From Pseudomonadota bacterium (GTDB lineage: Bacteria > Myxococcota_A > UBA9160 > SZUA-336): DNA of 64,000 bases. The DNA lies in the NCBI GenBank assembly GCA_003247575.1, contig QJZC01000004.1:1-64000 (forward strand). Reading direction: 5' to 3'. Below the pieces are notes generated by a model. That model was not told the DNA's origin. It did not search any database and worked only from the letters and a program-made list of their open reading frames with translations. Positions 9,598-38,916 of the stretch are shown piece after piece (position 1 is the stretch's first letter; each line of letters starts with the position of its first letter). A program made the translations under genes and the position numbers.

Positions 9598-9672
9598 GGT
9601 TCCATCTGCGCGATCCTGATCGAGTTCCTTCGGTCTACCCCCGAGGCGCGGAGGATCGTCCGGCGCCAGCCT

Positions 9673-11907: not shown

Positions 11908-11952
11908 AGCACGCTGCCGGCGCCCCCATCGGGGGTATGCCATGCTGTGCGG

Positions 11953-15952: not shown

Positions 15953-15967
15953 CGCGAGCGGAGCCAC

Positions 15968-21396: not shown

Positions 21397-21622
21397 CAGC
21401 CGCGGCGCAGCCGGGTAGCATTCGAAGGGCAGGGCCGGTGGCACGGTCGAGCACGTGCGCAGATCGAGATCCGTCGTTCCAAGGAGGCTGGAGCGGCACA
21501 GATCCGAAAGCCGATCTCAGCGGGTAGCTGGAGGCGCGGGCCCGTGGGCGGCGGACGGCCTGGCGGGTCCGTACTCGTCGGCCTGCTCGCCGAGCGTGCG
21601 CCTGCGGTACACTGCGCAGCCT

Positions 21623-22783
21623 ATGGATCTGGAGCTTCTCGATCTCTCGCAGCTGCGCCAGCGCCGTGGCGAGAAGTGGCGCCGATATCCGGAAGATGTG
21701 CTGCCCGCCTGGGTGGCCGACATGGATTTCGGCCTCGCCGCCCCCTTGCGCGAGTGCCTCCGCAGAGCCGTCGAGCTCTCGGACGTCGGCTACCCGCAGT
21801 ATGCCTCGGATCACGGCGTGCAAGCGGTGCTGGCAGCGCGCATGCAGCGACTCTACGGGTGGCGCATCGAAGCCGAGAGAGTCGAGGTTCTGAGCGATGT
21901 GGTTCAGGGTCTGTACCTCGGGCTGATTGCCTTTTCCGGTCCCGGAGACGGCGTCATTACTCCGCTGCCCGTATATCCTCCGTTTCTGAGCGCTGTGGGC
22001 GAACTCGGGCGGAAGCGGGTCCCACTGCACCTCGTGCCGGGAAAGGATCGCTTCGAACTCGACTTCGACCGGCTCGAGGCCGCGCTCGATCCGTCGCCGA
22101 AGGTGCTGATGCTCTGCCATCCGCACAATCCAACAGGGCGCGTGCTGGAGCGTTCGGAGCTCGAGCGTCTGGCAGAGCTGACCCTGCGCCATGGCTGGGT
22201 CGTGCTGTCCGACGAGATTCACGCCGACCTCTGTTACACGCCGCATACGCACGTGCCGTTCGCATGTCTCTCGCCCGAGGTCGAGGCGCGCACGATCACG
22301 CTCACGTCGGCGAGCAAGGCGTTCAATTTGGCTGGCCTGCGCTGTGCCGTAGCGGTCTTCGGCAGTGCCGAGCTGCAGCGTGACTTCCAAGCGCAGATCG
22401 GCCGGCACACGCGTGGTGGGCTCGGAATTCTCGGACTGGAGACGACGCGGGTCGCGTGGACCGAGTGCGACGCCTGGCTTGCCGAGCTGCGGAGCTACTT
22501 GCGGGGCAACCGGGATGCCGTCGCCGACTTCCTCGCGAGTCGTTGGCCCGACGTGAGTCATCATCCCCCGGAGGCAACCTATCTGGCTTGGCTCGATTGT
22601 CGGGAGCTGGACCTGCCCGAGGGTGCCTATCGATTCTTTCTGCGTCGCGCCAAGGTCGCGCTTTCTCCCGGAGAAGCGTATGGGGCCGAGGGCACTGGCT
22701 ATGTGCGGCTCAACTTCGCGACGTCGCGTCGAGTGCTACACGAAATACTGGAGCGGATGGATTCCGCGCTCGAGCGACTCTGA
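21623..22783 (+). CDS. PatB/MalY-type PLP-dependent C-S lyase or aminotransferase
   Basis: This 386-residue fold-type I PLP enzyme belongs to the MalY/PatB subgroup, whose members are mostly cystathionine beta-lyases and related C-S lyases. Subgroup signatures are LPAWVADMDFGLAAPLR near the start, GYPQYAS, VLMLCHPHNPTGRV (PLP-ring region), VLSDEIHADL (Asp contact), the Schiff-base lysine in TSASKAFNLAGL, and YVRLNFATSR with the carboxylate-binding arginine. Length is typical (~390). The ATG at 21623 matches the usual N-terminus; the open frame continues upstream without homology. No clear ribosome site is visible. The acyl-CoA synthetase gene starts 27 bases downstream on the same strand. The substrate (cystathionine, cysteine or another thioether) cannot be decided from sequence. 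Confidence 0.88.
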   Translation: MDLELLDLSQLRQRRGEKWRRYPEDVLPAWVADMDFGLAAPLRECLRRAVELSDVGYPQYASDHGVQAVLAARMQRLYGWRIEAERVEVLSDVVQGLYLGLIAFSGPGDGVITPLPVYPPFLSAVGELGRKRVPLHLVPGKDRFELDFDRLEAALDPSPKVLMLCHPHNPTGRVLERSELERLAELTLRHGWVVLSDEIHADLCYTPHTHVPFACLSPEVEARTITLTSASKAFNLAGLRCAVAVFGSAELQRDFQAQIGRHTRGGLGILGLETTRVAWTECDAWLAELRSYLRGNRDAVADFLASRWPDVSHHPPEATYLAWLDCRELDLPEGAYRFFLRRAKVALSPGEAYGAEGTGYVRLNFATSRRVLHEILERMDSALERL

Positions 22784-22810
22784 TCGCTCGACCGCAGAGG
22801 AGGGAAGACG

Positions 22811-24511
22811 ATGGGAGAAATGTCGCTCGAGGAGGTCCAGGCCCAGCTCGTCGCGCCTGGCTCGGCCTTCGAGATCGAAGAGGTCGAGATCCGCGGGATT
22901 CGAACGAAGACGTGGAAGAATGCGATTCCCACCTTGCGTGCGCTCACCGAGAACATGCGGGGATACGCAGACCGGATCTTCCTTGTGTACGAGGACGAGC
23001 GGGTCACCTACGCGCAAGCCTACGCCCGCATTGCCGCGTTGGCGCACTATCTGCGGGCCCAGCTCGGGGTTGCGCCAGGTGATCGCGTCGCCATCGCCAT
23101 GCGCAACTACCTCGAATGGCCGATCGCGTTCTATGCGGTGACGTCGATCGGAGCCATTGCGGTGCCGATCAATGCATGGTGGAAGGGAGATGAGATCGAG
23201 TACGGACTCGCGGATTCCGGCGCAGCGGTGCTGATCGCCGACCACGAGCGAGCGGAGCTCTTGGAGCCGCACTACCCGAAGCTCGAGCTGCGCGGTGTGC
23301 TGGTGGCGCGGCCCGCGAGTGCTCTGCGACCCGGGTTCGTCGATCTCGCGCAGGCGATGTCGAGTGCCACACCCGCGTTGCAGCTGCCGGAGGCGGACGT
23401 CACTCCCGATATGGATGCGACGATCTTCTACACGTCTGGTACCACCGGGAATCCCAAGGGTGCGCTCGGAACCCATCGCAACCTGCTGACGAACGTAATC
23501 AGTGCGGCGTACTCCCAGGCGCGCGCTCAGATGCGTCGAGAGGGGACCGCTCCCGACCTGACACAGGAGCGTCCCCAGCGTTCCATACTGGTGTCCGTGC
23601 CCTTCTTCCACGTGACCGGAAGCCACTCCGTGCTGGCCGCGAATACAGCTGGTGGGAACAAGCTGGTGCTCATGCATCGTTGGAATCCCGAGCGGGCGCT
23701 CGAGCTGATCGAGCGGGAGCGGGTGAACCAGTTCGGCGGCGTACCGTCGATGGTGTGGCAGGTGCTCGAGTCTCCCGACTTTCACAAGCGTGATACCTCG
23801 AGTATCGCCGTCGTTGGTTACGGCGGCGCTCCCGCATCGCCCGAGCTCGTTCGGCGTATCAACGAGTCGTTTCGAACCGCGACGCCGAGCAATGGCTACG
23901 GTATGACGGAGACCTCCGCGATCAGCACCGTGAACAATGGGCTCGACTACGTACGCAAGCCCGACAGCATCGGCACGCCCGTAGCGGTCGTCGACGTCAA
24001 GGTGGTGGACGAGTCAGGCAACGTCCTTCCGTGCGGCGAGGTTGGCGAGCTGTGCATTCGCGGCCCCAACATCGTGCGGGGCTACTGGAACAAGCCCGAA
24101 GCGACGGCAGCGACCTTCCGCGATGGATGGTGTCACTCTGGGGACGTCGCGAGGATAGACGAAGAGGGCTTCGTCTATATCGTGGACCGCGCCAAAGACA
24201 TGTTGATTCGCGGTGGCGAGAACATCTACTGCGTCGAGGTCGAGGACGTCCTCTACAGTCACCCCGCGATCATGGATGCCGCCGTCGTGGGCATTCCGCA
24301 CCCGGTCCTCGGGGAGGAGGTGGGGGCGGTGGTTCAGGTCGTCCCCGGTGCCCGCGTGAGTGAGCGCGAGCTCCGAGACTTCGTCGCGGAGCGCTTGGCG
24401 CGCTTCAAGGTGCCCGTGCGGATCGACCTGAGGATGGAGCCGCTCCCTCGCAATGCCAACGGCAAGATCTTGAAGCGGGAGCTGCGCGAGAGCATGATCG
24501 CGACGACCTGA
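22811..24511 (+). CDS. AMP-forming acyl-CoA synthetase / ligase
   Basis: This 566-residue ANL-superfamily adenylating enzyme forms an acyl-AMP and then the CoA thioester. The P-loop is FYTSGTTGNPKGA, followed by VPFFHVTGSH, GYGMTETSAI (motif A5) and GWCHSGDVARIDEEGF (A7). The hinge is DRAKDMLIRGGENIYCVEVE (A8), and the catalytic lysine is in NANGKILKRELR (A10). It most resembles long-chain or aryl acyl-CoA ligases with an ~50-residue N-terminal lead. AGGAGG lies at good spacing before the ATG, so expression should be strong. It follows the PatB-type gene closely. The regulator gene at 24711 is 199 bases further on. The acid substrate is unknown. Confidence 0.9.
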   Translation: MGEMSLEEVQAQLVAPGSAFEIEEVEIRGIRTKTWKNAIPTLRALTENMRGYADRIFLVYEDERVTYAQAYARIAALAHYLRAQLGVAPGDRVAIAMRNYLEWPIAFYAVTSIGAIAVPINAWWKGDEIEYGLADSGAAVLIADHERAELLEPHYPKLELRGVLVARPASALRPGFVDLAQAMSSATPALQLPEADVTPDMDATIFYTSGTTGNPKGALGTHRNLLTNVISAAYSQARAQMRREGTAPDLTQERPQRSILVSVPFFHVTGSHSVLAANTAGGNKLVLMHRWNPERALELIERERVNQFGGVPSMVWQVLESPDFHKRDTSSIAVVGYGGAPASPELVRRINESFRTATPSNGYGMTETSAISTVNNGLDYVRKPDSIGTPVAVVDVKVVDESGNVLPCGEVGELCIRGPNIVRGYWNKPEATAATFRDGWCHSGDVARIDEEGFVYIVDRAKDMLIRGGENIYCVEVEDVLYSHPAIMDAAVVGIPHPVLGEEVGAVVQVVPGARVSERELRDFVAERLARFKVPVRIDLRMEPLPRNANGKILKRELRESMIATT

Positions 24512-24710: not shown

Positions 24711-27700
24711 ATGGATTTGATCTATCGCTTTGATGAGTTCGAGCTCGACGGGCATCACTACGAGCTGCGTTGTCGAGGTGAGGTGCGGCCCCTGCCGCGG
24801 AAGGGGTTCGATCTTCTCCGCTATCTGTTGTCCCAGGCTGGGCGTGTGGTCAGCAAGGAGGAGATCTTCGAGCAGATCTGGCCTTCGCTCGCTGTCAGCG
24901 AAAACGTGCTGCCCGTGACGATCCGGACGATCCGCCGCGTCCTGCGGGACGAGGGCGGAGTGCTTTTGCGCACCGTGAGGGGGCGCGGCTACTCGATCGT
25001 GTGTCCCGTAACCGAAGAGAGTCCCGAGCGCGCCCAAGCGGGACCGGAGCCCGCGCCTGAGCGCGGTTTCGTAGGGCGCGAAGCGCTCATGCAAGACCTC
25101 GAAGCGCAGTTCCGCGCTGCGCAGGCCGGCGAGGGACGCATCCTCTTGATCCACGGTGATGCCGGGGTCGGGAAGAGCCGCGTCCTGGACGAGCTAGTGC
25201 ACCTACTGCGCCCACGCACGCGGCTGATCTTGAGGACGCGTTGCAGCTCCGAGCCGGGAGTTCCCCCGTATTGGCCTTTGAGCCAGGCTCTCGAGCAGGC
25301 TCAGGGCCTCTTCGAGCCGCCTCCGGGCAGCGGTGAGCCCTCCGATGGAGGCGCGGGGAGCGCGCATGCGGCCGGGGGGACCTACGCGAGTCTGGTCGAA
25401 CTCCTCGATCCCGAACTGAATCGCGGGGTGCCGCCAGCGGAGGTTCGATTCAGGTTCTCGCGCACGGTGATTCGCTATCTCCAGGAGCTCGGATCGTCGG
25501 CTCCGGTCGCGATTCTGCTCGACGATCTGCACGAGGCCGATCTCGACACGCTCCATGTCGTCGAATCCGTAGTGCGCGAGATCGCTGGCGTGCCCGTGCT
25601 CATCGCCGCGAGCTACCGACAAGGTGGGAGTCGCCGCGGCGGCGAGCGTTCCTACCTGTTGGCCCGAATCGCGCAGGCTACGAATGCGCACCAGATTCGC
25701 CTCGTGGGCTTCGATGAACGCGAGATCGCGCAGTTCATCCAGCAGGAGGCGGGCGTCGAGCCGCGTGCCGAGTTGGTGGCGGCCTTGCGCGAGAAGACGG
25801 AAGGCAATCCCTTCTTCCTGCGAGAGACGGTGCGATGGCTACTCGAGGAGGGTGGCATCGACGAGAACTGCAACCTCGCGGAGCTCGGACTGCCCGCGAC
25901 TGTGCGAGACGTCACTCTGCGCCGTCTCGACGTGTTGTCCGAAGAGTGTCGCTTGCTGCTCAGCTGGGCGTCGGTCATCGGAAGTACCTTCACGATTCCG
26001 GTGCTGGAGCAGGTGACCGAGATGTCGAGTGATACCATTCTGCTTCAGCTAGGGGACGCCGAGAACGCGCGTATCATTTCGAGCCGTGACCCGAGCGGCC
26101 CGCCCCGTCCTCCTGGTGAGTACGGGTTTGCGCACGCTCTGACCGCAGAGGCGCTCTACCAGGAGATCTCGGCTCCAGAGCGCGTGCGGCGTCATCGTCG
26201 CGTAGCCATTGCCCTCGAGGTGGTGAGTGGCCGCTCGATCACGGAGAGAGTGGGCGAGCTCGCGCACCACTTCTTCCAGGCCGCGCCAGCAGGTGAGGTC
26301 GACCGTGCTGGATATTATGCGATCCAGGCGGCGGAACGTGCGCTCGAGATGTTTGCCTACGACGACGCTGTCACCCAGTTCCGCAATCTGCTCACGATCG
26401 AGGAGATGCGTGTGCCGCGAGATGACGTGCGCTACTGCAATGGCCTCCTCCGGTTGGGAGATGCACTGTCACGCACCGGTCGCTACGCGGACTCCGAGCA
26501 GACCTTCCTGCGGGCTGCGGAGCTTGCGAGCCACCTGGATTCTGCGGAGCTGTATGCCCGAGCGGCACTGGGGGTCGCGGGCGATCCGTTCCGACGCGTT
26601 GGCCCCGAGTTCAAGGAGGATCCGGCACGCCCTTCGGCGCGCGAGCTCCTGGAACGCGCAGTGGAGTGGATGGCGGAGGGGAGTCTCGAAGTGCGCGCGC
26701 GCACTTGTGCCGCGTTGGCGCGACGCATGGTCGGGTCTGGCACCCGCGCCGAAGAGCTCGCACAGCGCGCGGTAGAGCTGGCTCGTGACGCGGATAGTCG
26801 CACGGCCTTGTTCGACGCGCTGATGGCGCAGCTCACGGTCCTGGTGGGACCCGAGCACACGGAGGCCCGCCTCCTCCTGGCGGACGAGGGTGTGCAGCTC
26901 GCGAAGTCACTGGATGCAAAGCCGCTGCTGGCGCAGGCCTACGCGGCTCGAATTTCGCTGCTCATCGCCATAGGGGATATGGACGCCGCCGATCGTGATA
27001 TTGCAGCTTTCGTTGCGCTAGCGAAGCGCCTGCGCGTGTCGCGCTACATGTACGACGCGCTTCGATTTCGTGTATGCCGTGCCGTGGGGAGCGGCAGATT
27101 CGAAGAGGGCCGCCAGCTGACGAATCGACTGCTGGAGCTGGGTCGCGAAGTCGGCGATCCCGCGGCGGGTTGGATCGCCGGCTCGAATGGGATGGCGATG
27201 CTCAGCTTCGTGGAGAGAAAGCGCGAGATTCTGCGCGCTGCAGCCGAGTCCATCGCCTCGCAAGAGCATATGGAGGGGCCTACGGCTGATACGTTCGCCG
27301 CGTACTTCGCGATGAGCTCGGGCGACAAGCAAGTGGCTCGAGCGAGGTTGGAGCGAGTGGCCGCTGATGGGTTCGCGCACTACCCGAAGACGGAGGACTG
27401 GCTCTGGAATCTCTCGCTCTTGGCGGACGTATGCGTGAGCCTGAGAGACGTGAAGCGCTCCGAGCAGCTGTATGAGCTACTGCTCCCTTACGCGCACCTG
27501 AACGTCGTGAACCGGCTGTCCAACTATCGAGGCTCGCTAGCCAGTGTCCTCGGCCGGCTTGCACTCATTCTGGGGGACCGAGAAGCTGCGAAGGCCCACA
27601 TGCAGGCTGCGATCGAATTCAATCGCAAGCTCGGCGCGTCGGTCACGGTGCTCGTGAACCGATTTTTCTATGCGGTGGCACTCCGACTGGGAGCGCCTGC

Positions 27701-27812
27701 AGAGCGTGCTGAAGCGCGGACGATCTTCAAGGAGGTTCTCGCCGAGGCGCCGCGCTACGGAGTGCTTCCATTCATCGAGAGGATGCGGCGAGAGGCCGGT
27801 GTCGCGTTCTGA
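24711..27812 (+). CDS. Winged-helix / AAA ATPase / TPR transcriptional regulator
   Basis: This 1033-residue regulator resembles AfsR and LAL-type activators. Residues 1-~103 are an OmpR/PhoB-type winged helix (YRFDEFELDG, LPRKGFDLLRYLLSQAGRVV, then RTVRGRGYSIVCPV). Residues ~118-450 are an AAA ATPase with Walker A GDAGVGKSR, Walker B ILLDDLHEADL and the GFDEREIAQFI helical segment. From ~500 to the end come helical TPR-like repeats. In this class the ATPase and repeats sense a signal and control DNA binding. Start choice is close: ATG 24711 sits almost on AAGGTGG, while TTG 24717 would have ideal spacing to it. The upstream 199 bases are locally AT-rich, so the gene probably has its own promoter. 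Targets are unknown; the neighbouring acyl-CoA ligase is a candidate. Confidence 0.85.
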   Translation: MDLIYRFDEFELDGHHYELRCRGEVRPLPRKGFDLLRYLLSQAGRVVSKEEIFEQIWPSLAVSENVLPVTIRTIRRVLRDEGGVLLRTVRGRGYSIVCPVTEESPERAQAGPEPAPERGFVGREALMQDLEAQFRAAQAGEGRILLIHGDAGVGKSRVLDELVHLLRPRTRLILRTRCSSEPGVPPYWPLSQALEQAQGLFEPPPGSGEPSDGGAGSAHAAGGTYASLVELLDPELNRGVPPAEVRFRFSRTVIRYLQELGSSAPVAILLDDLHEADLDTLHVVESVVREIAGVPVLIAASYRQGGSRRGGERSYLLARIAQATNAHQIRLVGFDEREIAQFIQQEAGVEPRAELVAALREKTEGNPFFLRETVRWLLEEGGIDENCNLAELGLPATVRDVTLRRLDVLSEECRLLLSWASVIGSTFTIPVLEQVTEMSSDTILLQLGDAENARIISSRDPSGPPRPPGEYGFAHALTAEALYQEISAPERVRRHRRVAIALEVVSGRSITERVGELAHHFFQAAPAGEVDRAGYYAIQAAERALEMFAYDDAVTQFRNLLTIEEMRVPRDDVRYCNGLLRLGDALSRTGRYADSEQTFLRAAELASHLDSAELYARAALGVAGDPFRRVGPEFKEDPARPSARELLERAVEWMAEGSLEVRARTCAALARRMVGSGTRAEELAQRAVELARDADSRTALFDALMAQLTVLVGPEHTEARLLLADEGVQLAKSLDAKPLLAQAYAARISLLIAIGDMDAADRDIAAFVALAKRLRVSRYMYDALRFRVCRAVGSGRFEEGRQLTNRLLELGREVGDPAAGWIAGSNGMAMLSFVERKREILRAAAESIASQEHMEGPTADTFAAYFAMSSGDKQVARARLERVAADGFAHYPKTEDWLWNLSLLADVCVSLRDVKRSEQLYELLLPYAHLNVVNRLSNYRGSLASVLGRLALILGDREAAKAHMQAAIEFNRKLGASVTVLVNRFFYAVALRLGAPAERAEARTIFKEVLAEAPRYGVLPFIERMRREAGVAF

Positions 27813-27880: not shown

Positions 27881-28921
27881 CTACACCCGTTGCTCGTGTG
27901 CAGTCGCCTCCGCTTGCTGTGCGCTGAGCTGGATCGCCCGCTCCGTCCTATATCGATGCGGAGTCTCGTTATACCAGCGTTTGAAGGCGCGATGAAATGC
28001 CGCGACCTCAGCGAACCCGAGCAGTTGGGCGACCTCGGCAACACTGAGCCCATCCTCGACCAGATATCGCGTGGCCAGACTTCGTCGAAGCTCGTCCAAG
28101 AGCGCGCGAAAGCCAGTGCCTTCCTGGTCGAGGCGCCGGCTCAGGGTCCGACGACTCATGCGCAGACGTGCGGCGACCGTGTCGGCACAGACGCGACCCT
28201 CGCGAATCTGCTCCGATAGGATCCGTTGAACGCGATGAGAGAAGCTCGGCTGGGAGCGTAGGGTGCTGACCTCGCGGTCTGCCCAGCGCCTCAGCAGGTC
28301 GTGTAGGCGCGGATCGGCCGTGGGTTGAGGTACGTCCAAGAGCTCGGATGGGATCGCGAAGCCGTCGAACCGGGAGCAGAAGACCAGATTGCAGTCGCCG
28401 AAGGTCTTGCGGTACTCCGAGAGATCGGCCGGTGCGGAGTGTCGGAACGAAACGCTGATGCTGGGGTGAATCGGTTGGCGCCACCAGTGTCGAATGACTT
28501 CGAAGAGAAGTGCGCTCTTGAACTCCGTCGCGACTCGGTTCAACGGGACGCCGCTGTCGAAGCAGACATGGGTAGTCTCCCCCTGGTCGCTCAGCTTGAA
28601 GCTGCAGGCGTCGCTGATCAGGCGGACGTATTCCGACAGTACCTGGAAGCCGTGGCGAACACTCCGCGAGGAGAACGCCAGATACTCGAGCAAGTCGTAG
28701 TCTCCGCGCTTGACCTCGCGAGCAGCTCGTAGCCCCAAGGTGAGGTCTCCCGTCGCCTGCTGTGCCTGGTCCAAAAAGTGAATCGCCGTGGAGATCGAGA
28801 TACGCTGTTCCGGCTGGACGCCCTCGAACTCTTCGAGCAAGTATGCGGGGGCTCGAGCCTCTCGCTTGAGCAGCGAGATGAACGGCGCGAGAACGCGCAT
28901 GGATACGCATGTTTCTGACAT
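27881..28921 (-). CDS. AraC-family transcriptional regulator
   Basis: This 346-residue regulator has an N-terminal Arabinose_bd-type sensor domain (TLGLRAAREVKRGDYDLLEY and VRHGFQVLSEYVRLI) and a C-terminal double helix-turn-helix AraC domain (VAARLRMSRRTLSRRLDQEG, then VAEVAQLLGFAEVAAFHRAF and W-N-x-P-x-x-YR). Members of this branch (OruR, ArgR2, MmsR-like) usually activate amino-acid or fatty-acid catabolic genes. I chose the ATG at 28921 because AGGAGGT lies eight bases upstream; an upstream frame to 29023 has no support. It is divergent from the indolepyruvate oxidoreductase-like gene, which is its obvious candidate target. Direct repeats occur in the shared 511-base gap. Confidence 0.9.
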   Translation of the reverse strand: MSETCVSMRVLAPFISLLKREARAPAYLLEEFEGVQPEQRISISTAIHFLDQAQQATGDLTLGLRAAREVKRGDYDLLEYLAFSSRSVRHGFQVLSEYVRLISDACSFKLSDQGETTHVCFDSGVPLNRVATEFKSALLFEVIRHWWRQPIHPSISVSFRHSAPADLSEYRKTFGDCNLVFCSRFDGFAIPSELLDVPQPTADPRLHDLLRRWADREVSTLRSQPSFSHRVQRILSEQIREGRVCADTVAARLRMSRRTLSRRLDQEGTGFRALLDELRRSLATRYLVEDGLSVAEVAQLLGFAEVAAFHRAFKRWYNETPHRYRTERAIQLSAQQAEATAHEQRV

Positions 28922-29432
28922 GGAGCAGGACCTCCTCGGTTCGGTCGCAGGCAGGGCACGTCCGCTTCGAACCCTGTGCGACCGCCGAGCAGTGCGATCG
29001 CCGACCACGGACGCGCCGGCCATCTGACACCGGACGAGGCGTCGACCGGACGCGTCGTTGGAGTCTAGATGACATGCTGCAAGTCGAGCCTATCAGCTAT
29101 CCACCTTCGAGCGGGGCTCGCTACTGCAATACGCAGCATCTTTTCATCTACTGAATGGGGCCGGAATATTGAGGATTTGCGGGTATTTATGGGGTTTTCA
29201 TCGAAACCTCATCGATTCGGTGTGTAAGTCGCATCAACGGGTCCAGGGCGCGACACCGGCGTCGTACACGGAAGCCAGCCACACTGGGTGCTGTTCAAAG
29301 GTAGCTGCGTGTTGGGGCCCACGACGGGTCTGTCCGTACTGACGGCCGCTGGCTGGCTTCGGCTCGAGTTGCGCTCACCTTGCTTGGTAGAGGGTAAACC
29401 CGCGCTCACTGCGGGCCGATAGAACCCGCAGA
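28922..29432. other. Divergent intergenic region, AraC regulator / IOR-like gene
   Basis: These 511 bases hold no convincing gene. The middle part (about 29120-29220) is clearly AT-richer than the rest of the window and probably contains the promoters. The pair of TCATCGA repeats lies here. Confidence 0.6.
29198..29215. repeat. TCATCGA direct repeat, 11-base period
   Basis: TCATCGA occurs at 29198-29204 and again at 29209-29215, one helical turn apart, inside an AT-rich patch. AraC-type proteins commonly bind direct repeats on one face of the helix, so this could be the operator of the adjacent AraC-type regulator. A GGTTT/AAACC inverted pair overlaps it. Confidence 0.4.
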
Positions 29433-32400
29433 ATGGCGGAAACGTCGCGCACTTGGCCCGTTCTCTGGGACCGTTTTCACAAAGCCGAGGGACGGGTTCA
29501 TCTTACCGGCTACGAGGCGGTCGTTCGGCTGATGCTCGACCACGTGCGGCTCGAACGCAGGGCAGGGCGACGTGTAGCCGCGCTCTACTCTGGCTGTCCT
29601 GGTAGCTCGATGGACGCGCTCGTCGATCTACTCGATGCGCTCGAGCCCTTGCTCACGGATCATGATACGCGCTTCGTTCCTGCGCTGGACGAGGCCCTGG
29701 CAGCGGAAGCGATCGTCGGCACTCAGGCGCTGGATCTATTTCCGCACTCGCACCACGACGGCGTGCTCGGTGCGTGGATCGGGTCGGCCTCTGGGCTGGA
29801 ACGCGCCCTGAGTGTCGTGCGGCGCGCCAGCTATCAGGGAGTGTCGCGCTTCGGGGGTGCGCTCGTACTCGTGGGCGACGATCCATCCGGGGCGAGCACG
29901 GGGATGCCGACCTACTCCGAGAGTGCGCTCGCTCACGCCTTCGTACCGGTCTTCTATCCCGCGGACGCTGCGGAGATCCTGAGCTTGGGACGTCACGCAT
30001 TGGCGATCTCTCGCTTTGCTGGAACCTGGGTCTCGCTCAAGCTCGTGCGCGACGTCGTGGCTGGCGGCATGATCGTGACACTCGAACGGAATCCGTTCGA
30101 GCCTCAGCTTCCGAAGCTCGAATTCGCGGGACGAGCATTCGAGAAGCGCCTCGAGCCCTCGCTGCGGCGCGCCGCGATCCGCCGCAGCGAGCATGAGTTG
30201 GTCTATGAGCGCCTCGAGGCGGTCCAGAGATACGCCGATCTGAATGAGCTGAATCCAGTCGAGCATCGTCATGCGCGCGATCGCCTCGGGATCGTCGCCA
30301 GCGGTCGCCTGTATCGGGAGCTCCAGAGCGCCTTCGAGCTGTTGGGCCTCGATGCGGCGGCGCTCGGAAAGCTGGGGATTCGGGTTCTGCGTCTGCAGCT
30401 GCTCTATCCCATCCCCAAGCGTCGTCTGCGTGAATTTGCCGAGGGGCTCAGCGAAGTCATCGTGCTCGATGATCGACGCGGGTTCATCGAGGATCAGATT
30501 CGGATCGGACTGTGCGATCTGACTTCGCCGCCGCGCGTGCTGGGCCAGCGCGATCGCCGTGGGGCACCCTGGCTTGCTCGTCATGCCGAGGTCACTGCGG
30601 AGTCGCTCGCGCTCGATTTGGGGCCCTACCTGGCGCGGCAGTACGCGCCTTCGGGAAGCGACCTGCCGGTCCTTCAGCGGCTTCACAAGAAGGTCGATCC
30701 AGAGACGGGAGAGGCGCGCATCGTTCCCGTTCAGGGACCCGACGTGGTGCGGGATGCCCTCGTGAGCCGCATCGCGGAGCTCGGAATCGCGCGCCATCGC
30801 CTGCCGAGCGCGTGGAGCGTGTCGGAGGCGTGTTCACGCGCCGAAGAAAGCAGTGCCGCCTGCCCATCGGGGGAGATGGGGCCCCTCTCCGAAGAGGTGT
30901 ATGGCGTCGGATCGGTGTCGAGCTGGATCGGGCTTGCTCCCTACATCCACACGCGGCATCGCTTCGTGCGGCTGCCACGAACCCTGCCCTGGCACAGATC
31001 ACGGCTCGTGATCCAGGCAGCGATCGATGCGGGGGTCACCGTGACCTACGTGTTGCAGCTGCATTCGATCTCCGGGGGGCGTGACGAACGTCGCGCAGGA
31101 AAACCCGTCGGCGACGCAAGCGCCGTTGCGAGCGAGAGACGCTGTCGGCCATCGCGTGCCGATTGCATCCGCGCACTCCTCGCCGAGGGGGTCGCGCACG
31201 TAGTCGCTCGGATTCACGACCCAGCGATCGATGCATTGGCCGAGCGAGATCCGAGAGTCGAGGTCGTGCGCACGCAGAACATCGAGCAGATGCAGCAGCG
31301 GTTGGCCGCTCAGTCTGGGGTCAGCCTGTGGATCGAGCAGGAGCCGGCGGATTCCCTCACCGAGCTGCAGCGGCGCGTGCCCGTTTGGGCCTTCCCCCCG
31401 GAATCGTTCGGGCCGAGCTGGTCAGAGCTGTTCGACATCGAGGGGGAGTGGGCTCCTGGGCCGGCGTATCGAGAGCTCGAACAGCTCGTCCTGGATGAGC
31501 CTGATCTCCCGACGGAGGGTGCGAGGCGCGTTCAGCTGTGCGCTTCCGGTCCTTCTGCGGAACGCATCATCGACGTCATCGTGCGAGCGGCCGAGATCGA
31601 GGGGCTTCATGCTGTGCATCTGGCCTGCCCGCACGGGCCTCAGCCCGCTGCGTCCGACTGGGCCAGCTGTATCCTGAGCTCTACACCGATCCCGGGATCC
31701 GCGCGGGTCGTGCTCGAAGGGGCGAGCTGCGTGTTCGCATCGAGCTTCGAGCTCCCGCCCAGCGCCTCAGGTGATCGCGTACTGTCACCGGAGAGGTCGC
31801 TGGTGCTTCTGCACCGGCCAGCAGCTCCGGATCGGATCGTCGGCACCCGGAGCTCCGCGACGGACGTGCAACACAGCTGGGATGCGCGTTGCCGGGAGCT
31901 CCAGGTGATAGACGCGCGCGAGCTCTGTCGCAGCGTGCTCGGGGCACCGCAGCACCATCCGATGGTGCTCCTTGGGATGGCTGCCCAGCGGGGTAGGCTG
32001 CCCTTTGCAAGTGCTGGGCTCGAGTGTGCGATTCGCGACCGCGAGTCCGATCTGGAAGGGAGCCTGCTGGCCCTGCGGCTGGGCCGGGCCGTTGTCGCGG
32101 CCCCCGAGGTCGTGGAGAGATGGATGCGCGCGGCGCTGGATCATGACAGTGCCCACTCTCTCCGGACGGCCTCCGCGTCTGCGGGCCGCCCCGATGATCC
32201 ACATGCGATTCTCGAGCGAGCGTTGGCGCCTTTCACGGATCGACGAGTGGCCACCGGTGCGCTGGAAGCGCTGTCCAGGCAGGCCCGCGAGCTGGCGGAC
32301 TACCAGGACCTTGCCTACGCCACCCGGTTCGCGTCCGTCGTCGAGGTTCTACTCGCTTCAGAGGCCCGAAGTTCGGAGCTTCGCCAGCCTCTGCTCTCGG

Positions 32401-32936
32401 TTCGAGCTGCCGACGTCTTGGCTGAGCTGATGCTGACCCCGGACTTCTACGAATCTGCTCGGCAGCGTCTGCGGGGGAGGTATCGGCTCTGGCTCGAAGG
32501 GCGCTCGAAGCGCCTCAGGCTCCGCCACCGCCTACGATCCGCGCTCTGGCCTACGCTCCAGCGAACAAAGTCCGCGTGGGAGGGCGCCGGAAGCCCGCTG
32601 CCCACCGCCGAGATCTCCGTCTCAGCACGCTGGGGGGATTGGCTGCTGGCGGTCGTCGTTTCCGCACGTCGGCTGCGCAACTCGGTGCTCGACCCTGCGC
32701 GACTGAGTCCGCGGGTCAGGTTGCTGCGCGCACGGCGCGAGTTCGGGGTCGCGTGTCTGGGACGTCTCGGTGAGCTGTGGGCGCGGAGATCCTCCGAGGG
32801 GATCGAGAGCGACAACGTGGTCGGGTTCTGCATCGAACAGCTCCACCATCTGGCGGCGCTCGATCCGAGTGAGGTGGACTCAGTCCGCCGCATCGAGGCG
32901 CGCATCGAGACCCGCCTGGAAGGCGAGCGCGAATGA
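29433..32936 (+). CDS. Catalytically degenerate fused indolepyruvate ferredoxin oxidoreductase homologue
   Basis: This 1167-residue protein follows fused indolepyruvate:ferredoxin oxidoreductase (IorA-IorB) over its full length. It has the N-terminal pyrimidine-binding region (FVPALDEALAAEAIVGTQ, then DGVLGAWIGSASGLERALSV, FGGALVLVGDDPS, ISRFAGTWVSLKLV), the IGLAPY segment, a gamma-type domain (about 695-790) and the C-terminal helical DUF6537-like part (YQDLAYATRF). What is missing is striking. The CSGCPHN motif is absent, and the TPP-Mg motif GDGxxxxSG...N reads PRTLPWHRS...T near 513-530. No CxxCxxC ferredoxin motif remains. It may be a non-catalytic scaffold or have a new chemistry. Frame and codon use are intact, so this is not decay by mutation. 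It is divergent from the AraC-type gene. Confidence 0.75.
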   Translation: MAETSRTWPVLWDRFHKAEGRVHLTGYEAVVRLMLDHVRLERRAGRRVAALYSGCPGSSMDALVDLLDALEPLLTDHDTRFVPALDEALAAEAIVGTQALDLFPHSHHDGVLGAWIGSASGLERALSVVRRASYQGVSRFGGALVLVGDDPSGASTGMPTYSESALAHAFVPVFYPADAAEILSLGRHALAISRFAGTWVSLKLVRDVVAGGMIVTLERNPFEPQLPKLEFAGRAFEKRLEPSLRRAAIRRSEHELVYERLEAVQRYADLNELNPVEHRHARDRLGIVASGRLYRELQSAFELLGLDAAALGKLGIRVLRLQLLYPIPKRRLREFAEGLSEVIVLDDRRGFIEDQIRIGLCDLTSPPRVLGQRDRRGAPWLARHAEVTAESLALDLGPYLARQYAPSGSDLPVLQRLHKKVDPETGEARIVPVQGPDVVRDALVSRIAELGIARHRLPSAWSVSEACSRAEESSAACPSGEMGPLSEEVYGVGSVSSWIGLAPYIHTRHRFVRLPRTLPWHRSRLVIQAAIDAGVTVTYVLQLHSISGGRDERRAGKPVGDASAVASERRCRPSRADCIRALLAEGVAHVVARIHDPAIDALAERDPRVEVVRTQNIEQMQQRLAAQSGVSLWIEQEPADSLTELQRRVPVWAFPPESFGPSWSELFDIEGEWAPGPAYRELEQLVLDEPDLPTEGARRVQLCASGPSAERIIDVIVRAAEIEGLHAVHLACPHGPQPAASDWASCILSSTPIPGSARVVLEGASCVFASSFELPPSASGDRVLSPERSLVLLHRPAAPDRIVGTRSSATDVQHSWDARCRELQVIDARELCRSVLGAPQHHPMVLLGMAAQRGRLPFASAGLECAIRDRESDLEGSLLALRLGRAVVAAPEVVERWMRAALDHDSAHSLRTASASAGRPDDPHAILERALAPFTDRRVATGALEALSRQARELADYQDLAYATRFASVVEVLLASEARSSELRQPLLSVRAADVLAELMLTPDFYESARQRLRGRYRLWLEGRSKRLRLRHRLRSALWPTLQRTKSAWEGAGSPLPTAEISVSARWGDWLLAVVVSARRLRNSVLDPARLSPRVRLLRARREFGVACLGRLGELWARRSSEGIESDNVVGFCIEQLHHLAALDPSEVDSVRRIEARIETRLEGERE

Positions 32937-32995: not shown

Positions 32996-33041
32996 TCTCA
33001 AAAAACGAGAATCGCCGCCACGAGACTCCGTGGCGGCGATT
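32996..33041 (-). terminator. Intrinsic terminator of the TonB/TtpC operon
   Basis: A perfect 13-base stem (33010-33022 with 33029-33041, arm AATCGCCGCCACG) with a six-base loop is followed, on the minus strand, by six T at 33005-33000. It lies 84 bases after the TPR gene stop and is the clearest terminator in the window. No T-tract follows on the plus strand, so it acts one way. Confidence 0.9.
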
Positions 33042-33124
33042 CAGTCAGTCTTCTGCGAGTCAGTGGAGCGCGAGGCGTGCGAGATCGGTCCGAGCTTGCA
33101 CGCGGCGCGGCATTCAGGCTAGAG

Positions 33125-34393
33125 CTACTCGGCGGAGTCCGCAGCCTTCTTCGTGTCGATGAACTTGACCCACTGGCTGCCCTTCTTGCGAGTGTCGTCG
33201 AACTTCTGTGCTCGAACGAACTCCTTCCGAGCAGTGTCCAGCTTGCCGAGGTTGAAGAGCGCGATTCCACGCAGGAAGTGCGTTTCGCCACGGCTCTTCA
33301 GCTTGCCTCGCTTGACGCCTGAGTCGATCGCCTCGATGGCGTCGTTCCAGCGCTCGCCATCGATGTGCACCTTGGCCAATCGAACGAAGAGCTCGCCATC
33401 GGACGAGAGCTTCGCGGCTTCGGTGAGCGGCTGGATGCTCTTGTCGAACTCACGTGCCTGTAGCCAGGCATCTGCGAGCAGCTCCCAGTTCCTCTCGGAC
33501 TTTTCCATGCGGCCGGCCGCGATCTCCGTCTCGATGAGTTTCGCACCCTTGAAGGGGATCTCGAGAAAGAGGTACGTCTCCGCAAGGCGACGGAGGTCCG
33601 TGTTGCTGGTGAGGAAGCCCTGCTTGTAAGCCAGCTCCTGGGCTACGAGTGCGCCCTTGTCATCCTTGAGCTCCGAGTAGACGGCTGCCAGCTGCTTCCA
33701 GTAGGAGGCCTTCGGGAACCGAAGAGCCATCGACTCGAGCAGAGGTGCAGCCTTCTTGTACGCCTTCTTGTCGATGTAGAGCGCGACCGCCAGATTCATC
33801 CAGCTCTCTTCTGGATCGGGCCGAGTGGCGAGCGCCTTCTCGATCAGCTCGAGCGAACGGCCGAACTTCTCGGCCTGATAGTAGGTGCTCGAGATCGCGT
33901 AGAACTGGGTTCCGGTGGGACTCTCAGCGCCTTGCAGCCAGGTTTCGAAGGTGCGGATGCTCTCGGGGAGCTTCTCCAGGGCTCGGTACATCTGGGCGAC
34001 GTTGAACTGGAAGTCCAGGGTCTGCCCGGGGCTCAGCTGGCCCGTCGCGATTGCCTTCTCGAAGAACGAGATTGCCTTGTCGTACTTTTCCTGGGCGCTG
34101 TAGGCATACCCGAACATCTGGTACGTGACGGCGGTCTCGTAACCATTCAGGCTCTCGACGTCGATCGCCTGGAGGCACTTGAGGGCCTCGTTCGTCTTGT
34201 CCTCGGCCAGCATCTCCTGGCACGGCAGGATCTTCTTGTAGGTGTTCGGGCGCATGACCTGAGCCTTGCGCGTCTCTGGCGGCGGTCGCTGCCCTTCCTT
34301 CTGAGCGTTGGCGGCGGACAGAGGCAGGAGGACGCAGAGCCCTCCGACCCACACGAACCGAAGCAATGCGAAACCGCGTGTCGATGTTCTCAT
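33125..34393 (-). CDS. Secreted TPR protein of TonB2/TtpC-type operon
   Basis: This ~422-residue protein has a signal peptide (basic start, LLRFVWVGGLCVLLPLSAANA, cleavage near AQ) and a body of about nine TPR-like helical pairs (examples: AVTYQMFGYAYSAQEKYDKA, ESWMNLAVALYIDKKAYKKA). It should be periplasmic. A TPR protein closes the TonB2-type operon in Vibrio and relatives, where it supports TonB2-dependent transport. The ATG at 34393 has AGGAG upstream; a GTG directly precedes it. It is the last gene of the operon, 21 bases after tonB, and is followed by the terminator at 33041-32996. Confidence 0.85.
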   Translation of the reverse strand: MRTSTRGFALLRFVWVGGLCVLLPLSAANAQKEGQRPPPETRKAQVMRPNTYKKILPCQEMLAEDKTNEALKCLQAIDVESLNGYETAVTYQMFGYAYSAQEKYDKAISFFEKAIATGQLSPGQTLDFQFNVAQMYRALEKLPESIRTFETWLQGAESPTGTQFYAISSTYYQAEKFGRSLELIEKALATRPDPEESWMNLAVALYIDKKAYKKAAPLLESMALRFPKASYWKQLAAVYSELKDDKGALVAQELAYKQGFLTSNTDLRRLAETYLFLEIPFKGAKLIETEIAAGRMEKSERNWELLADAWLQAREFDKSIQPLTEAAKLSSDGELFVRLAKVHIDGERWNDAIEAIDSGVKRGKLKSRGETHFLRGIALFNLGKLDTARKEFVRAQKFDDTRKKGSQWVKFIDTKKAADSAE

Positions 34394-34414
34394 CACCTTA
34401 GTCTCCTAGGTCGC

Positions 34415-35038
34415 TCAGCCGCGCTCTTCGCCCGCGATCTTGAAGGTCAGCACGACCTGCACACCGGTGCGTGCGACCGGAACCCCATCGACCACCTTGG
34501 GCTTGTACTTCCAGCGCTCGACCGCCCGAATCGCTGCGCGATTGAAGATCGAGGAGGGCTCGGAGTCGATCACCTGCGGATCGATCACCGCGCCGGTTTC
34601 CGACACCGTGAACTCGAGCTGGACCCAGCCCTCGATTCCGCGCGAGAGCGCGCGTGGCGGATAGCGCGGCTCGATGCGGACCAGGGGAACCTCTTCGCCG
34701 TCGCTGGGAGGGCCACCGAGGCTTGGACCACCCACGAGGCTCACCTGCGAGACCATCACGCCCAGGTTGGTCATACCCTGATTGGTGGGCTTCGGGACGT
34801 TGCTCAGGTCGATCTCCGGCGGCTCGGGTGGCTGCTCGTTCTCGACCTTGTCCGGGAGCTTGCGCTCGCGGACCTGGGTCTGCGTGTCCTGGATGGTGCG
34901 CGAGAACTCGACGATGGTCGTTTCGACCTTCTTCAGCTCGCGATCACCGGAGTTGGCGATGAGCGACTGCATCGTGAAGAAGAGGCCGACCGTGATCGAG
35001 AAGCCCGCCAGACCGGTGATTGCATAGCGACCTGTCAT
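34415..35038 (-). CDS. tonB: TonB family energy-transducing protein
   Basis: This 207-residue protein has a single N-terminal membrane anchor (residues ~4-25, preceded by a short cytoplasmic start), a proline-containing periplasmic linker (PPEPPEIDL) and a TonB C-terminal domain (IEPRYPPRALSRGIEGWVQL, then AIRAVERWKYKP). It carries proton-motive energy from ExbB-ExbD to outer-membrane receptors. It is shorter than classic TonB and like the TonB2 type. It overlaps exbD by four bases (ATGA type). No TonB-dependent receptor gene is in the window. Confidence 0.92.
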   Translation of the reverse strand: MTGRYAITGLAGFSITVGLFFTMQSLIANSGDRELKKVETTIVEFSRTIQDTQTQVRERKLPDKVENEQPPEPPEIDLSNVPKPTNQGMTNLGVMVSQVSLVGGPSLGGPPSDGEEVPLVRIEPRYPPRALSRGIEGWVQLEFTVSETGAVIDPQVIDSEPSSIFNRAAIRAVERWKYKPKVVDGVPVARTGVQVVLTFKIAGEERG

Positions 35039-35451
35039 AGGTTCCCCTCGAGGGCGGAGATCGCAACTTCCTTTACGCCCGCCTGCTTGGCTTGATCGAA
35101 TACCTTTACGAAGACTCCGTTCTTGGACCGGCGATCGGCCTGGATCACGACCGACGCCTCCGGCGTCTCGCTGAGTAGACGCTCGACGTTGGAGCGCACC
35201 TGATCCGGCTCGATCCGCCGCTTCTGGACCCAGACCTCGCCGGTCTGACTGATCGCGATCAAGATGTTTCCTCGAGGCTTCGGGATGCTCTTGGCTGCGA
35301 CCGGGCGATCGATCTGGATGCCCGCCTCCTTGACGAACGAAGCGGTGACGATGAAGAAGATCAGCATGATGAACACGACGTCCAGCATGGGCGTCACGTT
35401 CACCTCCGACTCCTCGTCGGCCGCTGCGGATTGTCGTGTGCGTATGCTCAT
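35035..35451 (-). CDS. exbD: ExbD/TolR family biopolymer transport protein
   Basis: This 138-residue protein has a short cytoplasmic N-terminus, one membrane helix with the proton-path aspartate (PMLDVVFIMLIFFIVTASF) and a periplasmic domain (RGNILIAISQTGEVWVQKR, then VVIQADRRSKNG). It forms the ion-conducting core with ExbB. It starts seven bases after the exbB stop and overlaps tonB by four bases. Confidence 0.93.
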   Translation of the reverse strand: MSIRTRQSAAADEESEVNVTPMLDVVFIMLIFFIVTASFVKEAGIQIDRPVAAKSIPKPRGNILIAISQTGEVWVQKRRIEPDQVRSNVERLLSETPEASVVIQADRRSKNGVFVKVFDQAKQAGVKEVAISALEGNL

Positions 35452-35458
35452 GTTGGGC

Positions 35459-35986
35459 TCACTTCTGCACGAGGAGGTCTGCCGTCCGCTGGGTCTCGGA
35501 TCGCGCGCGCTGGAGTAGGGACACGCTCGGGTAGAACCCGGAGATGGCTGCGACCATGCCGGCCATGGTGGGAATGGTCGCCTTGGTGACGCCCGACGCC
35601 ATGGCTCGAGCGCTTCCGCTCCCTGTGATGGCCATGATGTCGAACACCTCGATCATGCCGGTCACGGTGCCGAGCAGGCCGAGCAGCGGACAGACGGCCA
35701 CCAGGGTATTGATCGTCCCCAGTGAGCGGCTGAGCTTCTCGTTCACCTCGGCGATCAGCTTGCGCCGAATACACGAGGCGTGCCAGGAGCGGGTGTCGTC
35801 GCGCGAGGTCCACTCTTCGACGACCCGCTGGACCTCCTTTGGATGCCCCGTGCGCATGTACCAGTATCGCTCCAGCAGCAGGGTCCACATCATGAACAGG
35901 ACCACTCCGATCCAGTTGAGGATGGGACCGCCGGCTACGCGGAAGTCCTGAATCGCGATCCAGGCTTCAGACAGACTTACCAGCAC
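35459..35986 (-). CDS. exbB: ExbB/TolQ family proton channel subunit (ExbB2 type)
   Basis: This 175-residue protein has three membrane helices and the MotA/TolQ/ExbB domain. The signature is in VAVCPLLGLLGTVTGMIEVF and MASGVTKATIPTMAGMVAAI. Its small size matches the ExbB2 of TonB2 systems. The start is GTG with GGGAG seven bases upstream. The first 20 bases overlap the end of the preceding TtpC-like gene, so translation is coupled. Confidence 0.93.
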   Translation of the reverse strand: MLVSLSEAWIAIQDFRVAGGPILNWIGVVLFMMWTLLLERYWYMRTGHPKEVQRVVEEWTSRDDTRSWHASCIRRKLIAEVNEKLSRSLGTINTLVAVCPLLGLLGTVTGMIEVFDIMAITGSGSARAMASGVTKATIPTMAGMVAAISGFYPSVSLLQRARSETQRTADLLVQK

Positions 35987-37370
35987 CGCTCGACTCCCTC
36001 TCGGCGCGCTGGGCGATCATGCCCGCCGCCTGCTCCTCGAGAATCTGAACCAGCGACTTGCTCCGGTCCCGGAGGAAGCTGTGTGCGAGCACCATCGGGA
36101 TGGCCACGATCAGACCCTGTGTCGTGGTGACCAGAGCCGTGGAGATGCCGCCTGCCATCAGCTTGGGATCACCGGTACCGAACAGGGTGATCTGCTGGAA
36201 CGTAACGATCATACCGGTAACCGTGCCGAGGAGTCCCAGCAGGGGGGCGATGACCGACAGCACCTTCAGTGTGCTGAGGCCACGCTCAAGCGACGGAACC
36301 TCCTTGATGATGATCTCGTCCAGCTTGAGCTCGAGCGTCTCGACGTCGACGTCCTTGTTCTGCTCGTAGATCGCCATCACCCGGCCCAACGGGTTGTTCA
36401 TGTTGGGCGAGTTCGACTTCATCTGGCTGCGCATCTTGCTCCCGGTAGTAGAGAGGGCGAGCAGCCTGAACAGCAGGATCAGGGTTCCGAAGGCACCGAG
36501 TCCGATGATCACGTAGCCGACCAAGCCGCCCTGGTCTACGCGCTCCATGAAGTCTGGAGCGGAAACCAGCAGGCCCAGGATCGTGCCGCGCGACGGATCG
36601 ACCGACATGCGCACGACCTCTCCCGGGGCTGCAGACAGGATGGTGGATGCCGCAGCCGTGTGGCGCGAAGGCGGCTGCCGCTCGAGTTCGGCCAGGGTCT
36701 CGGTGTCGGGCTTCCAGACCAGGAACTTGTCGTCGGCAACCGCGCTGAAGGGGCCGACGCGCACCACGGGGAGTGTCTCCGCGGTGCCGTCCGTGCGAAC
36801 CACCGCGGCTTCGAACTTGCTGACCTGGCCCGTGTAGGCCATTTCGCCGAGCAGGGTCTCCCAGAGGAGCTTGAGCTCGGAAACCTTGGGCAGGCTCTGC
36901 GCCGCAGCCATCTTGTCCATCTCTTCGATGCGACCCGGGTACTCGGCCGAGGTCATCGAACCGCGCAGCTTCTCGCGCGTGTCACCGGCCACCTGGCGGA
37001 AGACCCCGAAGAGCTCGCCCAAGTTCCCCTGCCGCTCCGTCAACCGTGCCTCGAGCTCGGTGAGTGCCTGCTCGTTCTCACGGAAGGTCGTCTCGAGGGC
37101 GGTCGTCGCGGCCTCTTGACGCGCGCGCTCCTGCTGGGCTCGGCCCAGGGTGGCGCGTAGCTTCTCGAGGTTGGCGCGGAACTCCTTCTCGCGCTCCTGG
37201 TTGAGACGCTTGTCCCCGCTGTTCTCGTCGCGTACCGCCTTCAGAAGGTCCTTGATCGACGTGCCTTCCTGTGCGAACGCCGGGCCGTGCGGCAGGGTAA
37301 GGGCCAGCGTCGCCACCGCGGCTCCGAGCCCTCGGGCTCCGATCCATCGAAGTGTATGAAGCGGATTCAT
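35967..37370 (-). CDS. ttpC: TtpC-like large MotA/TolQ/ExbB protein
   Basis: This 467-residue protein has a signal peptide (GLGAAVATLALTLPHGPAFA), a periplasmic coiled coil (~60-160, QAxLR- and E/Q-rich), a periplasmic domain to about 290, and then three membrane helices with an ExbB-type channel domain (LSVIAPLLGLLGTVTGMIVT, STALVTTTQGLIVAIPMVLA). This is the architecture of TtpC, the fourth component required by TonB2 systems in Vibrio. It begins one base after the DUF3450 stop and overlaps exbB by 20 bases. The symbol follows family architecture; receptor specificity is not visible. Confidence 0.88.
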   Translation of the reverse strand: MNPLHTLRWIGARGLGAAVATLALTLPHGPAFAQEGTSIKDLLKAVRDENSGDKRLNQEREKEFRANLEKLRATLGRAQQERARQEAATTALETTFRENEQALTELEARLTERQGNLGELFGVFRQVAGDTREKLRGSMTSAEYPGRIEEMDKMAAAQSLPKVSELKLLWETLLGEMAYTGQVSKFEAAVVRTDGTAETLPVVRVGPFSAVADDKFLVWKPDTETLAELERQPPSRHTAAASTILSAAPGEVVRMSVDPSRGTILGLLVSAPDFMERVDQGGLVGYVIIGLGAFGTLILLFRLLALSTTGSKMRSQMKSNSPNMNNPLGRVMAIYEQNKDVDVETLELKLDEIIIKEVPSLERGLSTLKVLSVIAPLLGLLGTVTGMIVTFQQITLFGTGDPKLMAGGISTALVTTTQGLIVAIPMVLAHSFLRDRSKSLVQILEEQAAGMIAQRAERESSGAGKSV

Positions 37371-37371
37371 C

Positions 37372-38157
37372 TTAGTTTCCCCCCGCGCTAGGAGCTGCGA
37401 TGGGCAGGCTGATCAGGTCGGGTGGAGCCTGCTTGCGAGCGATGCGGAAGCCATCCTCGATCTCGTTGCGATACGAGCCGTCGACCTCCTTCCAGCTGCG
37501 ACTGGTGTTGTCCCAGTACGCGATCTCGTCCGCATCGGGTGTGCGGTAGATCAGCAGCACGCGGCCGACCTGGAGGAACTCGACCGTGCGGCCGTCGGGG
37601 AGCGTGTCGTTGTATGCGCTCATCGTGCGGGCGTAGTCGTTCTCGATCTGATAGGCCTCCGTGAGTCGTCGGTACTTCTCGGCGGTGGTCACATCGGGCT
37701 GGTCCATCAGGTCTTTGAGCAGAGCCACGCGGGTCTCTCGTTCCTCGAGCAGGAACGGTACGTCGCGCTTGATGAACTCATCGAGCGTACTGATCATGTC
37801 GTCCATCAGCGGAAGGATGTTTCGCTCGACCTCTTTGACGCCGTCGATGTCGCCACTGATCCGGACCTTGTCCTGCTCCTGGGTCGCGATCAGGCTCCGC
37901 AGACGATCGTTGTAGCGCTTGAGGTTCTCGATGGTCTCGAGCTCCTGCTTCAACTTCGCGATCTTGTCGTCCGTTTCATTGCTCATCTTGTCGATCGCAG
38001 CTTGTGATCTCGCGTTCGACACGTTCTGAGCGATGCGCGGTCCGAGGATGCTGTCTCGCAGTTGCTCGTCAGCCTGTGCATTCACACTGAGCAGGCCCGT
38101 AGCAGCGGCCGCCGTCAGCGCGAACGTCGTGCTCCGTAGTATCTTGATCTTGCGCAA
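37372..38157 (-). CDS. DUF3450 periplasmic protein, first gene of TonB2/TtpC-type operon
   Basis: This 261-residue protein has a signal peptide (basic MRKIKILRS, then TFALTAAAATGLLSVNAQA), a coiled coil at about 55-105 (KIAKLKQELETIENLKRYND), and the DUF3450 block with LPLMDDMISTLDEFIKRDVP, EKYRRLTEAYQIENDYARTM and VLLIYRTPD. DUF3450 genes head TtpC-TonB2 operons in proteobacteria and are thought to work with TtpC in the periplasm. I placed the start at TTG 38157, ten bases after GGAG, because it gives a proper signal peptide. The frame is open far upstream but that part has no family resemblance. Confidence 0.85.
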   Translation of the reverse strand: MRKIKILRSTTFALTAAAATGLLSVNAQADEQLRDSILGPRIAQNVSNARSQAAIDKMSNETDDKIAKLKQELETIENLKRYNDRLRSLIATQEQDKVRISGDIDGVKEVERNILPLMDDMISTLDEFIKRDVPFLLEERETRVALLKDLMDQPDVTTAEKYRRLTEAYQIENDYARTMSAYNDTLPDGRTVEFLQVGRVLLIYRTPDADEIAYWDNTSRSWKEVDGSYRNEIEDGFRIARKQAPPDLISLPIAAPSAGGN

Positions 38158-38916
38158 TTCCAGTGTACTCCCAGCTGATGTGCCCCGATTCTGCCACGGG
38201 TGCACTCGAAAGTGGAAACTCAACCTCGGGCAAGTCACGCTTGGCTTGCTCGCGACGGCAGCGAATCTGTACGCCTTATCGGGTCGTCTGCCCCGAGACC
38301 AGAGCCCATCGGTCCAGGATGCGGATCTGCTCGCGCGCATCATCGCAGAATCTTGCGAGTTCTGCGCGATGGGAATGAATGGATCCGGCAGTGCAGCGGA
38401 CGAATTCACTGTGGCCTGGCCGGGATGTTCGACCGGCGAACGGATACCGTGTGAGGACCAAACGGGCGTTCGACTGTCAGCCGCCGGCGGAACGCGTTCG
38501 ACCATTCGGGCGCGCACGTTCAGGCTTGCGCTCGCGGTGGCTGCGGACGCGCAACTCTCCGGCAGCGCTCGCACGACCGAGCGTCGTCGAGCCCTGTCGC
38601 TCGTGCTGCGTGGCGAGTTCCGGGTCGGAGTGAGCGCGCCTGGCTGCTTTTGTGCTTTTTTCGCTTCTTGCGGCGTACGCGTGCTCGAGGGATCCGCCGA
38701 GGGATCGGTCAGACCAACCCAGGGCGCGGCGTGAGCGTGGCCGCAAACCCCGCCGCCGCCCTCGTTCCGAGCCCGCCGGGACGTGGCTGATTCGGGAGCC
38801 ATCAAGGTTCGGATGCGCGAGGTCGGCCCAAGATTCATCCAGGGATCGAACGTACGCAATATTCGGTTGGGTCGCCGGCGCTCCCGCGGAGGCGCCGGGG
38901 GCCGGCGCCGCAGAGA
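38158..38916. other. Long gene-free stretch between cysE and DUF3450 operon
   Basis: These 759 bases are open in several frames, as expected at this GC content, but no translation looks like a protein family or has a good start. The part near 38158 should hold the promoter of the minus-strand TonB operon. I saw no Fur-box-like sequence there. The other end holds a GC hairpin just after cysE. Confidence 0.5.
38891..38909. repeat. GC-rich hairpin after cysE
   Basis: GGCGCCGG and CCGGCGCC are separated by GGG, eight bases past the cysE stop. It could be an mRNA 3'-end hairpin. No T-tract follows, so intrinsic termination is not shown. Confidence 0.5.

Follow-up and report, generated by a model that had tools for sequence, protein, structure and literature searches.

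The window, the whole 64-kb stretch of DNA analysed here, carries on its forward strand (29433-32936) a gene for a degenerate homologue of the fused indolepyruvate oxidoreductase IorA-IorB, hereafter the IorAB-like protein, which is very probably catalytically dead and kept under selection. Domain II of this protein evolves at the rate of an active enzyme, and selection on the domains for catalysis and electron transfer has relaxed. The 2-oxoacid:ferredoxin oxidoreductases (OFORs) belong to the ancient enzymes of central carbon metabolism. The discarding of the cofactor sites together with a fully constrained domain II suggests that domain II has a function which can be separated from catalysis. 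We tentatively propose that the IorAB-like protein is an old, derived pseudoenzyme which may pair with, or modulate, an intact paralogue of the same genome; if this is true, an OFOR would be regulated by a dead paralogue.

Family assignment and lost cofactor motifs

The gene is one unbroken frame of 1167 codons from ATG to stop, without internal stops or frameshifts, as the first-pass annotation had described. Five intact relatives match it by tblastn over essentially its whole length without a change of frame, which rules out hidden or compensated frameshifts, and frameshifts are therefore not the cause of the missing motifs. The fused IorA-IorB layout, also claimed previously, is confirmed by this alignment and by the best curated matches, NF009589 (PRK13030, 415 bits against a curated cut-off of 816) and NF009588 (PRK13029, 330 bits against 952); IOR_alpha matches with 64 bits, likewise below its curated cut-off. 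Pfam DUF6537 (PF20169) matches residues 945-1097 with 45 bits, and PFOR_II weakly matches residues 287-349. Common descent and domain order (end-to-end alignment, nesting in the clade) link the protein to NF009589; its score, the absence of the GDG...N Mg-TPP motif and the absence of the CSGCPH motif and ferredoxin-type cysteines are at odds with that family. Among 91 genomes of the class, all other full-length, uncut fused copies exceed the NF009589 cut-off (1112-1647 bits), the IorAB-like protein being the sole exception; the remaining sub-threshold matches are short ORFs, whose coordinates mark them as fragments at contig ends, or are as long as stand-alone IorA-type genes. An Rfam search across the 64-kb window gave no match.

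The protein was aligned with a reference set of 41 fused IORs of its own class, in which 176 columns were at least 97% conserved (conserved columns). Domain boundaries were drawn from Pfam matches, from the alignment and from the way conservation varies along it, without a structure: a PDB search returned relatives of the gamma subunit only, with no IOR alpha structure for residue mapping, and an AlphaFold model from a two-sequence alignment had a pLDDT of 32, too low to be of use. All features below lie on the forward strand. The pyrimidine-binding (PYR) domain (domain I; residues 1-263, 29433-30221) keeps its framework and 32 of 47 conserved columns, and has lost several near-invariant residues (Y55C, P59S, N86D, K118S, P120S). 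The PFOR_II-like OFOR domain II (residues 264-405, 30222-30647), whose homology to domain II of solved OFORs is based on the weak Pfam match and on family knowledge, retains 14 of 14; for this counting, PYR was taken as residues 1-215 and domain II as 216-405. It is followed by a remnant of the TPP-binding, domain VI-type region (residues 406-645, 30648-31367) with insertions, deletions and 14 of 49 conserved columns.

Within this remnant, the columns of the proximal-cluster motif CSGCPH (residues 461-466, 30813-30830) are replaced, in a region reading WSVSEA. The columns of the Mg-TPP motif GDGT (residues 515-518, 30975-30986) read PRTL, the QNLGDGTYFHSG of intact relatives having become VRLPRTLPWHRSR, and the Mg-ligand Asn of LYNGVIAMTGGQ is absent (residue 544, 31062-31064; N544H), as are the GGGIGCH and GAMGSEG loops. 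The ferredoxin segment (residues 646-694, 31368-31514) is shrunken to 4 of 23 conserved columns: its VCEGCGDC...C stretch is deleted (22- and 15-residue deletions relative to the intact paralogue) and all conserved cysteines are gone. The gamma (IorB-type) domain (residues 695-885, 31515-32087) is degenerate (15 of 28 conserved columns) and has lost its GIGSTG loop; the DUF6537 tail (residues 886-1167 plus stop, 32088-32936), where PF20169 matches, is degenerate as well (7 of 15). The earlier report that the CSGCPH motif, the GDG...N Mg-TPP motif and the ferredoxin cysteines had been lost therefore holds in the alignment with intact relatives, in which no substitute TPP or cluster motif is visible. 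In solved OFORs, domains I and VI enclose TPP; domain VI binds the Mg of Mg-TPP with its Gly-Asp-Gly motif and an Asn, and TPP is activated by a Glu of domain I (PMC5020499). The lost motifs suggest that activity has been lost too.

Uneven constraint, origin and age

In total, 86 of the 176 family-conserved columns are retained in the IorAB-like protein, against 94-100% in each of the 41 relatives (leave-one-out control). The difference between domain II (14/14) and the TPP domain (14/49) has a Fisher p of 1e-6. An identity profile in 30-column steps, expressed as identity to the intact clade divided by the clade's own level, gave ratios of 0.96-1.04 over residues 264-421, 0.67-0.93 upstream of residue 264 and 0.12-0.73 over residues 422-838, with a partial recovery (0.82) at residues 839-868; the boundary of constraint is sharp, at about residue 421. 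Terminal branch lengths, computed per domain on a fixed topology, were 0.46 for domain II (sister 0.59), 0.71 for PYR (0.31), 4.6 for the TPP domain (0.67, and so about 7 times longer), 2.9 for the gamma domain (0.65) and 2.0 for the tail (0.53). Identity profile and branch lengths together indicate that domain II is constrained as in an active enzyme and that the domains for catalysis and electron transfer have been freed from constraint; with TPP, gamma and tail strongly relaxed, selection is uneven along the length of the protein.

The IorAB-like protein branches from within a clade of intact enzymes, and a placement outside was rejected (AU 0.003 for all sites, 5e-5 for the N half); the motif losses are thus derived. 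Its most likely sister is the genome's own intact copy, on contig C44; this placement is the best (UFBoot 93, AU 0.86), with some nearby placements still compatible and no resolved placement from the C half alone. Differences from the C44 copy at third codon positions amount to 0.56-0.68 in every domain, and those between the C44 copy and an enzyme of a different family to 0.59-0.62. Divergence at the between-family level shows that the duplication is old and that both halves are of the same age, and it rules out a recent isolated loss. Gene conversion or chimerism as the source of the conserved N half was also rejected, since third-position divergence is equal across the two halves; the N half is, moreover, 52% identical to its own paralogue, no higher than to other species.

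The surviving frame was compared with neutral expectation by evolving an intact gene at the G+C of the window to 41-54% identity in 50 replicates, which yielded a mean of 16-20 stops and a minimum of 9; some 10-20 stop codons are what drift would have produced. The actual frame is open, which argues that selection preserved the gene during most of its history. The old duplication, this result and the lack of any rate increase in domain II support the first-pass judgement that the gene is selected rather than decaying; synonymous sites are saturated, and dN/dS values are therefore rough. Loss of cofactor and catalytic residues, active ancestry and selective retention (open frame, domain II rate) characterise the protein as a pseudoenzyme.

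The protein is a singleton, from an assembly of 68 contigs with 74% completeness. The clade of orthologues sharing its losses, which the first-pass annotation had suggested looking for, did not turn up: no orthologue with the same losses was seen in the order, in the 91 class genomes or in a sample of 379 genomes of the phylum, and a search of 84,980 species genomes with six peptide patterns of the protein found no close relative.

Proposed role, gene neighbourhood and alternatives

The dimer interface of OFORs is formed by domains I, II and VI, and the two active sites lie so close that they could communicate (PMC5020499). The protein is therefore most likely to serve as a non-catalytic dimerising subunit. 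A dimer partner is the best fit for a protein that has neither clusters nor a domain VI-type site but retains an intact domain II and the framework of domain I. In the course of events we envisage, an active IorAB gene would have been duplicated and the C44 copy would have stayed catalytic; the other copy would have lost the Mg-TPP motif, the Fe-S cysteines and the gamma-domain loop but retained OFOR domains I and II, the latter as strongly constrained as ever. The degenerate protein would then dimerise with the intact C44 paralogue, the obvious candidate partner (or with itself), and as a non-catalytic subunit might tune the activity, stability or assembly of the paralogue. More hesitantly, we suggest that mixed dimers with the active IorAB could form through domains I-II and so control the OFOR. 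Against a partner role stand the loss of some near-invariant PYR residues, the strong divergence of domain VI, itself part of the interface, the singleton state, common to no orthologue found, and the location of the two genes on separate contigs, with no co-transcription as far as seen.

Upstream of the gene, 409 bp away and divergent from it, lies a gene for an AraC-type regulator (27881-29023, reverse strand; Arabinose_bd and HTH_18), which matches NCBIfam QhpR with 185 bits, below the cut-off of 250. The divergent gene noted at first pass is thus real; its supposed dedication to the IOR-like gene is unsupported, for AraC homologues in relatives (at most 39% identical) lie on contigs other than those of the IOR genes and none of the intact IOR relatives examined has an AraC-type neighbour. 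This bears on a doubtful alternative, namely that the protein has been repurposed to stand alone, its domain I-II fold serving, without intact IorAB, as a sensor or scaffold that binds a 2-oxoacid or acyl ligand, perhaps together with the AraC-type protein. The undiminished constraint on domain II and the adjoining divergent regulator gene would suit such a protein, and the yeast thiamine sensor Thi3p is a precedent in kind for the sensor (PMC4299793), but IOR genes are not accompanied by AraC homologues.

No conserved gene context was found around the IOR-like gene, the neighbours of the examined intact relatives being unrelated. A wHTH-AAA_16 gene in common with the G016 locus was rejected as shared context; its family has 15 matches in this genome. 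The member in the window (24711-27812, forward strand; 1033 aa) is a regulator with winged-helix, AAA_16 and TPR regions, and belongs to a family expanded in the lineage (the 15 matches are at E <= 1e-20). A class I/II aminotransferase and, after it, an AMP-binding acyl-CoA ligase (21455-24511, forward strand) lie upstream at a distance of a few kb; enzymes of these kinds could produce or consume aryl pyruvates and aryl-acetyl-CoA. Further upstream (6427-19603, forward strand) is a DNA-repair cluster of a DNA polymerase III alpha-type protein (1056 aa), a PD-(D/E)XK nuclease protein and a UvrD helicase-nuclease, the last two in tandem and AddB/AddA-like.

Slow decay of a duplicate, in which selection for an earlier function is giving way and domain II is simply the last region to erode, is unlikely. 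Strong relaxation over most of the protein, 22 in-frame indels against 6 in a control pair and the occurrence of the gene in one known genome are what decay would leave, but 1167 codons have stayed open without stops or frameshifts despite the old divergence, and constraint ends sharply. Highly improbable is continued enzymatic activity, whether with another cofactor or with other residues as ligands of TPP and the clusters: E87, the presumptive catalytic Glu in PYR, does survive, but the entire Fe-S segment is deleted, the GDG, the Asn and the GGGIGCH and GAMGSEG loops are gone with no visible substitute motif, and many catalytic-type PYR positions are also altered.

Downstream of the IOR-like gene and convergent with it is a cluster of ExbB/ExbD/TonB/TPR type (33125-38859, reverse strand), the order of which recurs in four genomes from this family; the parts of those genomes that were read show no IOR-like gene next to the cluster. 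This synteny indicates that the contig belongs to this bacterial family and that the stretch with the IOR-like gene is specific to the lineage. Between the convergent genes, a 15-bp stem-loop followed by a T run (33009-33042, reverse strand) is placed as the terminator of the TonB/ExbB/TPR cluster. An assembly or sequencing artefact, which the fragmented and incomplete genome might invite, can practically be dismissed given the one continuous frame, the syntenic Ton cluster alongside and a best sister in the protein's own genome.

Comparison with known systems

A full-text literature search, of partial coverage, found no paper describing a non-catalytic member of the OFOR family, IOR pseudoenzymes or DUF6537. 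The closest known system is the fused indolepyruvate:ferredoxin oxidoreductase (IOR) family (NF009589/PRK13030 and NF009588/PRK13029), whose reaction is the ferredoxin-linked oxidative decarboxylation of aryl pyruvates to acyl-CoA and which the IorAB-like protein resembles in domain order, length, end-to-end alignment (about 35-39% identity) and tree nesting; it differs in scoring below the cut-off, in lacking CSGCPH, GDG...N and the ferredoxin cysteines, and in the deletion of the ferredoxin segment. With the OFOR/PFOR superfamily at large it shares the PYR domain and the PFOR_II-like domain II, but neither a Mg-TPP site nor cluster ligands can be recognised in it. Yeast Thi3p, a relative of pyruvate decarboxylase, is comparable by functional analogy only, as a TPP-enzyme relative turned regulator; it belongs to an unrelated subfamily and senses thiamine, whereas the IorAB-like protein has lost its Mg-TPP motif.
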